NCBI RefSeq assembly: GCF_009497655.1
Contig: NZ_CP023317.1
Span: 4,059,501-4,123,500 of the forward strand
DNA: 64,000 bases
Origin: Priestia megaterium
Lineage (GTDB): Bacteria > Bacillota > Bacilli > Bacillales > Bacillaceae_H
Reading direction: 5' to 3'
Shown here: piece after piece, positions 19,221 through 38,269 of the stretch
Layout of the letters: each line of letters begins with the position of its first letter
Position numbering within the stretch: the first letter of the stretch is position 1
The notes under the pieces: model-generated
What the model was told of the DNA's origin: nothing
Databases searched by the model: none
Seen by the model: the letters and a program-made list of their open reading frames with translations, nothing else
Position numbers and translations under genes: made by a program

Positions 19221-19558
19221 CCTTATCACTACCTTACTTTTACTTCCTTATTCTTCATTATCCTAACATATTTTGAATTACAAAGACTAGCAAAAATCCT
19301 CAATTTATTCAATGCTGTATGCATTCTGTGCAATAACCCAGCAGCTTGCTTTTATGCTGGACTTTTACGACCGTCTCCTTAGATACACCTATGCAGATCA
19401 TTCGGCATTTCGTTCATAAAAGATTTCCTTTACTTTAATATGTCATCATAAACGTAAATTTACCCTTTTTCTCTGTCATGTTATCAGTCTTTTATATTTT
19501 AAAAAGTGAATTTCACGAGACAGGTATATGAACGTTTAAAACGGACATACTGACTAGT

Positions 19559-32066: not shown

Positions 32067-32882
32067 TTACACCTCGCATTTTTGTATAGGCGAAACGATG
32101 GATGCAACATACTCCTCAATTTGATTTAATCCGTCTCGGCGTGTATCCTTATTTAAAAGAACTTGTTCAAGCTGGCCAATTTTATTAACAATTGCACTTC
32201 CAATTACAATGCCGTCGCTGTGTTCTTTTAATACCTCTACTTGTTCGCTTGTTGAAATCCCAAAACCGACGGCAACCGGTATAGAAGCTGCTGCTTTCAC
32301 ATCTTCTAAAAAGGTGCCAATATCAGCTGGCAGCGTAGAGCGAACCCCAGTAACGCCTAAAGACGACACGCAGTATAAGAAGCCCGTTGCATCTGCAGCA
32401 ATTTTTTGAATACGCTCTTTAGATGTAGGAGCAACCATTGAAATGTACGCAACTTCATTTTCAGCGGCAAGCTCCCGGATACGGCCACTCTCTTCGTACG
32501 GTAAATCCGGAATTAGCACTCCATCTATTTCATTTTCTCGCATTAACGCGAAAAAGGATTCTAAACCTAATTGTAACACAGGATTAAAATAGGTAAAGAG
32601 AATTACCGGTATTTTCACACCTTTTTTTCTCATCACCGATACAAGCTTAATAGCTTTTGAAATAGACATACCGCCAGATAAAGCTCTTTTGGACGCCTCT
32701 TGAATAATCGGACCATCTGCTAAAGGATCGGAATACGGTACGCCCAGCTCTAAAATAGAAGCACCTTGCTTTTGCAAAGACAAAGCAATTTCCACCGTTG
32801 CATCTTCATGAGGATCTCCTGCTGTAATAAATGGAATAAATAATGTTTCATGTTTAGGTAGTCTCGCTTCAAACGTATTCAT
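32067..32882 (-). CDS. trpA: Tryptophan synthase alpha chain
   Basis: Cleaves indole-3-glycerol phosphate to indole, which is channelled to TrpB. 271 aa TIM barrel. The catalytic glutamate and aspartate are in [37 protein letters not shown] and [10 protein letters not shown] (phosphate loop region) are present. It overlaps the trpB end by 14 nt, indicating coupled translation. Confidence 0.97.
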
Positions 32883-34707
32883 GTTCTTCTTCCTTCCCTT
32901 CTAGCAAGTTTACTAATGTATGAACGTCCTTATCTCCTCGACCTGATAAGCAAATTAAAATGGTTTCTTCTTTCGTCATGCTTTTAGCCAGTTCAAATGC
33001 TTTTGCCAGCGCATGGGCGGATTCGATAGCCGGGATGATTCCCTCCGTTTTCGCCAGCAGCTGAAGAGCTTCGATTGATTCATCATCCGTTACACTTTCA
33101 TATTCTACTCGTCCAATAGATGAAAGGTGAGAATGCTCTGGACCGATACCCGGATAATCCAAACCTGCTGAAATAGAATAAGGCTCTGTAATTTGACCAT
33201 TTTCATCTTGAAGTAAATACGTGAGCGTTCCGTGGATAACACCTTTTGTGCCTTTAGCCATTTTAGCAGCATGAAGAGCTGTATTTAGTCCTTTCCCCCC
33301 TGCTTCTACTCCAATCAAGCGTACATGTTCTTCTTTAATAAAATCATAAAACATACCGATTGCATTACTACCGCCTCCGACGCATGCCACGACAGCATTT
33401 GGAAGTTTTCCTTCTACCGCTGTAAACTGTTCTTTTGCTTCTTCTCCAATAATTTTTTGGAAATCTCGAACCATTTTAGGATAAGGATGCGGTCCAATTG
33501 CCGAACCAATTAAGTAAAAATGATCTTCACAGTGTTGAACCCAGTAGCGGATTGCTTCATTTGTTGCATCTTTTAGCGTTTTTGTTCCAGAAGTTGCAGG
33601 AATGACTTCCGCTCCTAGAAGCTTCATGCGAAAGACGTTCAACGCCTGACGTTCAATATCTTCTTCTCCCATGAATACTTTACATTCCATTCCGAACTTT
33701 GCAGCTACTGTAGCTGTGGCTACCCCGTGCTGACCCGCTCCTGTTTCAGCAATAATTTTTGTTTTGCCCATCCGTTTAGCAAGTAAAATCTGTCCAATGG
33801 CATTGTTGATTTTGTGAGCACCCGTATGATTTAAGTCTTCACGTTTTAAATAAATTTTTGCCCCGCCGAGTGTTTCGGTAATATTATCAGCATATGTTAA
33901 AGCCGTTGGTCGCCCTGAGTAATTGACGAGTAAGGATAGATACTCATCTTTAAATGCCGGATCTTTCATTGCTTGATTCAAAGCTGCTTCTACTTCTTCA
34001 AGTGGTTTCATTAATGTTTCAGGTACGTATTTTCCGCCAAATTCACCAAAGCGGCCAAATTCATCAGGATGATTGTATGTCATAGTATGGATCTTCCTTT
34101 CAATCTCTATAATTTTTGTATAGTCCTTCGTTCCATTTGTTTCAATACCGCCAGAAATATCAATCGCCCCAGGCTTGTAGGGTAACAAGTTCTCAATGTT
34201 AAAAGCATTGATTCCTCCAGCAATAAAGCATTTTTTACCTAACTTTCGTGCAGCTGATTCATACTGAGGAACGAAGCTCCAATCAAAAGCGACGCCCGTT
34301 CCTCCGAATTGTTCTTTAACCTTGCTGTCAATTACATAACCGTCAGCTTCTTCATATACATGCATTTGCTGCAGCGTATCTTTATTGTGCGGGAGTGCTT
34401 TCCATACTTCATATCCACGCTGCTTTAACTCACGTACTTCAGCAGCTGTTTCTTGCCCGTGGCACTGAATCACATCTAAATTTGTCACGGAGGCAATTTC
34501 AAGTATTTGATCCACCGGTGTATTAACAAATACCCCTACTAGCGCGACTTGTTTTTTTATTTCATCCGTTACAAACTCATTTACTCGTTCAGGCTTTACA
34601 TATCGTTTACTTTTAGGGTAGAAAATAAAGCCAATGTGAGTAGCAGCCGACTTTTCGATTAAAGCTATATCTTGTTTTGATCGAATACCGCAGTACTTAA
34701 TAAGCAT
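32869..34707 (-). CDS. trpFB: TrpF-TrpB: phosphoribosylanthranilate isomerase and tryptophan synthase beta in one frame
   Basis: A single frame with no stop joins TrpF (residues 1-208) to TrpB (209-612). The TrpF part has the catalytic cysteine in KYCGIRS, the DVIQCHGQE strand, and [14 protein letters not shown] near its end. The TrpB part has [18 protein letters not shown], the PLP-lysine motif [20 protein letters not shown] and the phosphate loop GGGSNAIG. Both parts look intact and of normal length. In B. subtilis these are two genes. The TrpB ATG (34083) has AAAGGAAG 9 nt upstream, so a separate TrpB may also be made. ATG at 34707 follows GGGGA and overlaps trpC by 11 nt. Confidence 0.9.
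34084..34100 (-). promoter_or_regulatory. Internal ribosome binding site for trpB within the trpF-trpB frame
   Basis: AAAGGAAG lies 9 nt upstream of the in-frame ATG (34083-34081) that begins [17 protein letters not shown], the usual TrpB start. It would allow free TrpB beside any fused product. Confidence 0.6.
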
Positions 34708-35464
34708 ATTCACTTTCCCCAAACAGCTTTTTAATCGCTTTGGTTTGATTATCCTGTCTCATAAGCGATTCTCCTACTAAAATAGCTTTTGCTCCGGCTT
34801 CTTTTACGTAGGAAACATCATCGTATAAGTAAATGCCGCTTTCACTTACTAAAAGCTGATCTTTCGGCACATGCTTAGCGATTTCTTTTGTCTGCTGCAC
34901 GCTGGTTTCAAACGTATGAAGATTTCGATTATTAATCCCGATAATCTTCGGTGTAAATACAGCTAACAGCTGTTCAAGCGTTTCTAAAGAATGCACTTCT
35001 ACTAAACAATCTAACTCTTTTTCAGCAGCTTGAAGATAAAGCTCTTGCAATTTTAATGGTTCAAGTGCTTCTCCGATGAGTAAAATCGCATCGGCACCGA
35101 TTCTTGCACTTTCTTCCACTTGAATGGAATCAATGATGAAATCCTTGCGAAGCACAGGAATAGAGACATGCTGTTTAATATCACTTAAAAACGTTCGGTG
35201 TCCTTGAAAATAGTGCTGATCCGTTAACACAGACAAAGCATCTGCTTTTCCTTCCTCGTAGGCTTTAGCAATTTCCACAGGCTGAAAATTCTCTTTTATT
35301 AATCCTTTGGAAGGAGAGGCTTTTTTTACTTCTGCAATAAGAGCCAGCTCTCGATTCGGATTTGATAAAGCTTCTAAAAATGATCGTTTTGTAACATTTT
35401 GCTGTTCGGGTAACTGTAGGTTTTGAATTTCTTCTTTTTTTGTTTCAATAATTTTATTGAGCAT
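34697..35464 (-). CDS. trpC: Indole-3-glycerol phosphate synthase
   Basis: TIM-barrel enzyme closing the indole ring, 255 aa. Visible: [15 protein letters not shown] (catalytic lysine and phosphate site), [51 protein letters not shown] and VSESGIY. ATG at 35464, 6 nt after AAGGTGG, overlaps the trpD stop by 11 nt; an in-frame TTG two codons earlier is less likely. Confidence 0.96.
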
Positions 35465-36479
35465 GTTCAACCACCTTTTTCGATTTCAATCGTTGTAATT
35501 GCGTGTATGCAGCACCTGATTCAATTGTTTCTAAAGCTACAGCTACTCCTTCTTCAAAAGTAGAAACGTTTCCGCTAACGTAAATAGCTGCAGCAGAGTT
35601 CAACACGACTGCATTTTTAGCAGTTACATTACTTTTATTTAAAAATAGCGATTCAATGAGCTCTGCACTCGATTTCGCGTCTTCTACCACCAAATCTTCA
35701 AGCTTCCCTCTCTGTAAGTGTACATCCTCTGGTGCAAGCGTATATTCTGTAATAACATTGCCTTGTACTTCTACAATATCCGTTACATCCGTGGCACTAA
35801 TTTCATCTAAACCATCTCTGCCGGCAACAAGCAGGACGTGATTAGCTCCCAGTACAACAAGCGCTTCTGCTAATTTTCGTGCAAGCTCAATAGAATAAAC
35901 GCCAATTACTTGCTTTGTGCAGTTAGTAGGGTTTGCTAACGGACCTAATGCATTAAAAACGGTTCTAAACCCTAATTCCTTTCGAGTAGCAGCAACGTGC
36001 TTCATAGCAGGGTGATAAAGCGGCGCAAATAAAAAGGACATGTTGAGGTCAGCCACCGCATTTTTCACTTCTTTTTCATTTCCTTGAATCCATATATCCA
36101 AATGTTCTAACACGTCTGCACTTCCGCTTTTAGAAGATACCGCGCGATTCCCATGTTTCGCAACCTTTACTCCAGCAGCAGATGCCACAATCGCACTAGC
36201 CGTTGAAATATTAAACGTAGAGGCGCCGTCTCCTCCCGTACCGCACGTATCTACTACGTTTAATTCGTCTAGAGAAATAGCATTCATATTGTTTTTCATA
36301 CCCCGGACAAAACCAACAATTTCATCGACGGTTTCTCCTCGGTACGTTAAAATGGTTAGCACGCTAGCAATTTGAGCTGCCGGGACTTTACCGTTCATAA
36401 TATCATTCATAATTTTTTCTGCTTCTTCCGCTGAAAGTGACTCCCCGCGCAAACACTTTTTCAACAATTCTTTAAACAT
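35454..36479 (-). CDS. trpD: Anthranilate phosphoribosyltransferase
   Basis: Joins anthranilate to PRPP, 341 aa. The PRPP-binding motif is [37 protein letters not shown] and [36 protein letters not shown] complete the family signature. ATG at 36479 with GGAGG 6 nt upstream overlaps the trpE stop by 8 nt. No glutamine-amidotransferase domain is present, so TrpG must come from elsewhere (shared PabA in B. subtilis). Confidence 0.96.
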
Positions 36480-37986: not shown

Positions 37987-38050
37987 ATCTTTCAATCCTC
38001 CATTTCATGGAGAATGAGAATAGATGAGGTTATATAAAAGAGGATATAAT

Positions 38051-38206
38051 AAATAAACCCAAAGACACATCAAAAATGGGCCTTTGGGTATACGAATGGT
38101 AAAATTCACTCAACTAAACTCTGCTCAACTGTCTCATTCTCGTCTACCCTAATCTCAACTAAACTGTCTATTGTTTTCTCATAACTAAAATCTCTAAACT
38201 AACTTG
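38051..38206 (-). promoter_or_regulatory. trp leader with TRAP-binding (G/U)AG triplets and terminator
   Basis: The trpE leader transcript carries about 15 GAG/UAG triplets between 38201 and 38109. A core from 38161 to 38109 has mostly 2-3-nt spacing: ten triplets plus one CAG. Downstream is an intrinsic terminator with a CCCAAAG/CTTTGGG stem (38058-38064 and 38082-38088) and a T-rich tail. In B. subtilis the TRAP 11-mer binds 11 such triplets and favours the terminator. mtrB (TRAP) is encoded about 7 kb away in this window. Confidence 0.88.
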
Positions 38207-38212
38207 TTACCA

Positions 38213-38242
38213 ATTGTAGTACGTTTCAAATTCATTTGTCAA
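38213..38242 (-). promoter_or_regulatory. Sigma-A promoter of the trp operon
   Basis: Perfect TTGACA (38242-38237), 18-nt spacer, TACAAT (38218-38213) on the minus strand, placing the start just before the triplet repeats. Confidence 0.8.
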
Positions 38243-38269
38243 CTACTATCTACTTGGCTTTTGAAGAAA

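Follow-up and report, generated by a model that had tools for sequence, protein, structure and literature searches.

A one-base fusion of trpF and trpB in Priestia megaterium, with a retained internal start that may still yield free TrpB

The union of phosphoribosylanthranilate isomerase (TrpF) and the beta subunit of tryptophan synthase (TrpB) in one polypeptide is already known, and the available part of one article describes it as rare (PMC11237513). The protein family model for this arrangement (NF010376 / PRK13803, bifunctional phosphoribosylanthranilate isomerase / tryptophan synthase subunit beta) has the same domains, in the same order and in one chain, as the gene from Priestia megaterium that is described here. 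Two other systems resemble this locus in different ways. In gene pairs coupled by termination and reinitiation (PMC6728339, PMC12548453, in the parts available), the overlap is ATGA, which is the state of trpF and trpB in the four genomes nearest to this one. In the phage endolysin CTP1L (PMC4777826, in the part available), an internal in-frame start gives a second, shorter product, and there, likewise, one frame has two products.

The locus departs from each of these systems. Unlike the family behind NF010376, the fusion lies one base away from its sister genes, has kept the trpB ribosome site and ATG of the genus, and falls short of the curated cut-off of 819 bits, with a score of 787; the gene has TrpF followed by TrpB in one chain and is thus a fusion of the NF010376 architecture, not a curated NF010376 member. 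Unlike the ATGA-coupled pairs, its overlap has been destroyed, so that free TrpB would need true internal initiation (the comparison being with the available parts of PMC6728339 and PMC12548453), and unlike CTP1L, as far as the available part of PMC4777826 describes it, the shorter of the two products would here be an entire enzyme that existed as such before the genes were fused. The open-licence literature searched, including the available parts of PMC2395257, PMC11237513, PMC2700814, PMC3932018 and PMC12548453, yielded no description of TrpB being started internally in a TrpF-TrpB fusion. The terms internal start, internal ribosome, Shine-Dalgarno and frameshift are absent from the available text of PMC11237513, and neither trpF nor tryptophan is mentioned in that of PMC3711429. 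Measured against this open-licence literature, in the parts available, the TrpF-TrpB architecture is known, and what appears to be new is that these fusions conserve a start for TrpB inside the frame.

The window, by which is meant the whole 64-kb stretch of P. megaterium DNA that was analysed, carries a single stop-free open reading frame (ORF) of 612 codons, which runs on the minus strand from an ATG at 34707-34705 to a TGA at 32871-32869 (Table 1); a TTG located 15 nt upstream of this ATG (at 34722) is a possible alternative start, which would give 617 aa. The earlier note on this DNA had reported trpF and trpB in one uninterrupted frame, with both parts apparently complete. The frame was found as described, its coordinates and sequence details being correct, and Pfam coverage of the two parts is complete or nearly so (positions 2-190 of 193 in PF00697 and 4-295 of 295 in PF00291). 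The genome (G000) has one TrpF match, which is the TrpF part of the fused frame, and a single strong TrpB match; a second TrpB match was counted, weaker than those listed (E above about 2e-6). For each of the 51 PDB sequences that match at E <= 1e-10, the best stretch covers one part only, either TrpF or TrpB.

Table 1. Positions of the fused gene, its junction and the neighbouring trp features in the window.
Feature	Position	Strand	Details
Fused trpF-trpB	32869..34707	-	612 aa + TGA; NF010376 match over residues 1-604 of 612
TrpF part, phosphoribosylanthranilate isomerase	34084..34707	-	residues 1-208; PF00697, 161.9 bits
TrpB part, tryptophan synthase beta	32869..34083	-	residues 209-612 + stop; TIGR00263, 630 bits; PF00291
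Shine-Dalgarno (SD)-like site AAAGGAAG for trpB	34093..34100	-	within the final codons of the TrpF part
Internal ATG, trpB start codon	34081..34083	-	in frame with trpF; ATG at this place in 10/10 genus genomes
1-bp C insertion site	34089..34090	-	CC in the window, C in the four nearest genomes; ATGA stop/start overlap removed
trpC	34697..35470	-	11-nt overlap with the trpF start
trpA	32067..32882	-	14-nt overlap with the trpB end
trp leader	38046..38242	-	promoter-like TTGACA-18-TACAAT, run of TAG/GAG triplets, hairpin-like stretch and T-rich tail (by eye)

The trp leader is presumably a TRAP-type attenuator, after the model of B. subtilis; Rfam gave no match at this position, and although its promoter-like site was also listed by computation, the hairpin of the leader is absent from the computed list of terminators. 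In B. subtilis, aroH lies between aroB and trpE. The gap between these two genes in the window (37996-38269, minus strand) has no space for aroH and is occupied instead by the stretch that resembles a TRAP leader. The only Rfam match in the window is the ylbH leader RNA (RF00516, 19590-19735, minus strand), and near 19388, about 200 bases from it, 23 bases are missing relative to two close relatives of the strain (G008 and G001).

The origin of the fused frame can be read from the genus. In all nine of the other Priestia genomes compared, trpF and trpB lie in different frames, which rules out a fusion common to the whole genus. In the four nearest relatives (G001, G003, G007 and G008, whose TrpB is 99% and whose TrpF is 95-98% identical to that of G000), the TGA stop of trpF overlaps the ATG of trpB, and the junction reads GATCATACTATGA where the window has GATCCATACTATGA, with one C fewer in the relatives (over a longer stretch, GAAAGGAAGATCATACTATGACATAC against GAAAGGAAGATCCATACTATGACATAC). 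Termination followed by reinitiation at ATGA is a general mechanism that could supply TrpB in these four sisters; in the window the overlap has been destroyed. Because the nine relatives are unfused, and because the exact junction was read in the four nearest, the fusion is judged to be derived, having arisen in the Priestia lineage by the insertion of a single base, an event seen in one genome, the only strain of the species in the comparison. The earlier note had named a stop codon or frameshift at this point in relatives as evidence against the fusion; a difference of frame is indeed present in the nine relatives, and what it shows is that the fusion is derived, not that it is absent from the window.

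An extra base seen once may also be a sequencing or assembly error, in which case the strain would truly have the ATGA overlap and separate TrpF and TrpB. This explanation draws on the fact that the extra C is present in one genome only, being absent from the four nearest relatives, and that the other five genomes of the genus are unfused too. There may, moreover, be artefacts of this kind: Bacillus sp. JCM 19041 (L041) looks fused, yet the end of its trpB and its trpA are frame-broken as well, and it was dropped as a supporting fusion. Against an error stands, in the first place, the quality of the assembly (5.24 Mb in 3 contigs, 100% complete). In the second place, a proxy comparison between 460 kb from G000 and 480 kb from G008, of which 354 kb aligned in long collinear blocks, found no uncompensated 1-bp change other than the junction between genes that the two genomes have both conserved.

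This census covered ORFs of 100 aa or more in either of the two genomes, leaving aside their first and last 9 nt and the unaligned stretches, and counted 28 non-triplet gaps, one of them the junction. Four of the gaps form two compensating pairs, three more lie within 60 nt of gene starts, and one (position 419285) falls in an ORF without a match in the G008 stretch. A further 18 are located in ORFs found in a single genome: two ORFs, of 104 and 113 aa, account for 16 of these, an ORF of 117 aa for one, and an ORF of 197 aa (67 aa in G008), which is probably not a gene, for one. The remaining gap, of 10 bases, divides a frame of G008 in two. At that locus G000 has a 530-aa frame (G000:C1 offsets 104025-105617, about 3964025-3965617) where G008, with 10 bases fewer, has two frames, and the broken genome may be G008 rather than G000. 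At the level of whole ORFs, six from G008 are not intact in G000 and five from G000, the trpF-trpB frame among them, are not intact in G008, so that G000 is not unusually broken. Within the 64-kb window, comparison with G001 shows no indel other than the junction in any ORF of at least 100 aa; comparison with G008 adds only one, which touches the final base of an ORF of 128 aa. Of 437 sister ORFs, 390 (375,630 bases) keep at least 95% of their length intact, and only 1.6% of these conserved coding bases belong to the final five codons of a gene; random errors would therefore mostly strike sites where they do damage, and would rarely be as harmless in their place as this one, yet no damaging error was seen. 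Since no other uncompensated indel found in the 354 kb, bar the 10-base difference, joins or breaks genes conserved in both genomes, an assembly error is an unlikely source of the extra C, though it keeps some weight, and the insertion is judged, with good but not full confidence, to be real.

The site that would allow TrpB to be made from the fused gene is older than the fusion itself. As the earlier note had stated, a ribosome site lies 9 nt before the TrpB ATG and within the end of TrpF: AAAGGAAG was confirmed at 34100-34093, and a 9-nt spacer, ATCCATACT, separates it from the internal ATG, so that the window has an SD at a workable distance from an in-frame start codon. The predicted duplex between GAAAGGAAGAU and an assumed tail of Bacillus 16S rRNA has an energy of -9.6 kcal/mol. 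All ten genomes of the genus have GAAAGGAAG or a near-identical sequence before trpB; by this comparison, the internal SD of the window is the ordinary predicted trpB ribosome site of the genus. The TrpB part could be translated alone, starting at the internal ATG. In the window, retention of the SD may reflect only how recent the fusion is.

The explanation that we consider probable is that a recent insertion created the fusion and that the retained internal start still provides free TrpB. The single base added at the stop-start overlap would have placed trpF in frame with trpB; ribosomes translating trpF, unable to stop, would continue into a TrpF-TrpB protein of 612 aa, while ribosomes binding the internal SD AAAGGAAG would produce free TrpB of 404 aa. 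The coupling of termination and reinitiation at ATGA would thereby be lost, with true internal initiation in its place. The same two-product arrangement appears to be stable in f26, another family of the same order, in which most fused genes have kept the SD and the ATG. The earlier note had left the outcome as the fusion, free TrpB or both. This was the right frame for the question, and 'both' is, by comparison of genomes, the best-supported choice of the three, because the internal SD is the ordinary trpB site of the genus and because an old, independent clade, that of f26, keeps such a site conserved at the nucleotide level. The production of both proteins, their ratio and any benefit are what we infer from sequence, and a fixed ratio of fusion to TrpB is plausible.

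The survey of TrpF-TrpB fusions covered Bacillota. Among the NF010376 matches listed for 397 genomes of the order, in a list ordered with full-length matches first, those that are full-length and stop-free belong to G000, to G372 (family f11) and to at least 15 genomes of f26. In f26, trpF and trpB are fused in 34 of 35 genomes, a number that includes the junction of G405 (a 76%-complete draft in which TrpF is split over two frames); the single unfused genome, G416, has overlapping frames. Although 34 are fused, the NF010376 cut-off of 819 is reached by 9 of the 35, and it is therefore a strict one. A second, stand-alone TrpB-like gene is present elsewhere in several of the fused f26 genomes (G302, G360, G396 and G407, among others). 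In 348 genomes of the phylum there were 15 NF010376 matches at E <= 1e-210, and among these 15 only those of G000 and G662 are stop-free; the G662 frame (L248) has 867 aa and comprises TrpC-TrpF-TrpB, with an SD-like site and an ATG ahead of the TrpB part. A 777-aa open frame in G373 was ruled out as a fusion, TrpF (249-aa frame) and TrpB (405-aa frame) being separate there; four matches in metagenome-assembled genomes (L062, L064, L069 and L082) showed no single frame of at least 450 aa covering both parts, and the exact junction of the window had no match in IMG/VR. A quick tree of 62 TrpB rows shows four changes of the fusion state, which suggests four or more separate fusions of trpF with trpB among the Bacillota genomes sampled. 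All four of the inferred events come with an internal SD-like site and an ATG near the TrpB start; two of them, the independent fusions of G372 (AGGAGG, 9 nt, in-frame ATG) and G662 (AAAGGTG, 6 nt, in-frame ATG), are single cases whose SD-like sequence may be due to chance.

The sequence [AG]GGAAG lies 9 nt ahead of an in-frame ATG in 30 of the 34 f26 fusions, with the ATG present in all 30, and the commonest junction is D-E-R/G-K-M-x-x-M, encoded by GAA-[AG]GG-AAG-ATG-n6-ATG. The codons chosen are those that form the SD: AGG encodes Arg in 21 of 22 rows (pooled usage 17%), GGG encodes Gly in 9 of 9 (17.8%) and AAG encodes Lys in 32 of 34 (28%), all three being minority codons in these genes; AAA predominates in each of the other 14 conserved Lys columns. 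On a tree built from the fused proteins with the junction columns excluded, the junction Arg codon changes once (22 rows), compared with 13-19 times at 11 other conserved Arg columns (33-34 rows), and there are at least seven switches between AGG and GGG, each of which leaves the SD intact. The Lys column has two codon changes and another Lys column has one; taken alone, it is not unusual in its number of changes, only in its use of AAG. At the 94 unfused TrpF ends that fit a C-terminal motif, a subset of the loci, RGG-AAG occurs once, and the position of the start codon is occupied by F (58), I (24), L (8) or V (3), with Met in 1 of 94 compared with 31 of 34 in the fusions. As judged by codon choice and codon change, the SD site is conserved at the nucleotide level, beyond the requirement of the protein, and this holds for the f26 fusions only. 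The profile of anti-SD energy along the f26 genes has its first peak at the 3' end, which is probably the SD of trpA itself, and places the junction second, about equal to a peak near column 550; its mean and spread are distorted by no-duplex values, so that the profile alone is weak evidence.

These observations bear on the idea that the fusion alone is made and that the internal SD is a leftover, covered by translating ribosomes. An internal site can indeed be masked when the frame is heavily translated, and 4 of the 34 old fusions (G400, G401, G360 and G192) manage without the SD, three of them having Ile at the position of Met. However, a leftover would be expected to decay, whereas the SD codons of f26 resist synonymous change and their Arg/Gly replacements preserve the SD, which makes this idea improbable. 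No second TrpB match at E <= 1e-100 was found in G400, G401 or G192. Since G400 and G401 have neither the internal site nor a second TrpB, and have trpA directly downstream of the fused gene, their fused TrpB is probably functional. With the SD lost in 4 of 34, free TrpB does not seem to be indispensable in f26 fusions, and it would tune the dose rather than be essential.

It has also been considered that the SD-like stretch is not a start but a site where ribosomes pause, aiding the folding of TrpF before TrpB emerges. SD-like sequences have been proposed to pause ribosomes, and this one sits at a domain boundary. A pause, on the other hand, does not need an ATG at a fixed spacing of 9 nt, yet Met is found there in most fusions and hardly ever at unfused ends, and every fusion without it lacks the SD as well. 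This association has a Fisher p = 6.7e-4; counted by relatedness it comes down to three events of SD loss, two of them with loss of Met, and is not significant (sign test p = 0.5). On these grounds a pause site is very improbable. The channelling of an intermediate from TrpF to TrpB, to which the near-universal fusion in one family might point and which the earlier note had raised with TrpA as its partner, is scarcely credible and was rejected, given that TrpB does not use the product of TrpF and that TrpC and TrpA act between them in the established pathway, so that the steps are not consecutive.

Domain fusions are usually taken as two enzymes made one, and as a hint of channelling or interaction. 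In this case the partners are non-consecutive enzymes, and the old fusions appear to still yield one of them free. On balance we lean, if only modestly, towards the more general view that bacterial fusions of overlapping genes by a tiny indel can be lasting two-product genes whose internal start is kept by selection. If this is true, fusions that appear in databases as a single frame need not mean a 1:1 product, and their annotation overlooks a protein start. Priestia would represent the first step, of one base, beside near-identical unfused relatives against which the effects on protein ratio and growth could be measured directly. With an old fusion in nearly a whole family and a fusion one base old in the window, the full path is open to experiment.
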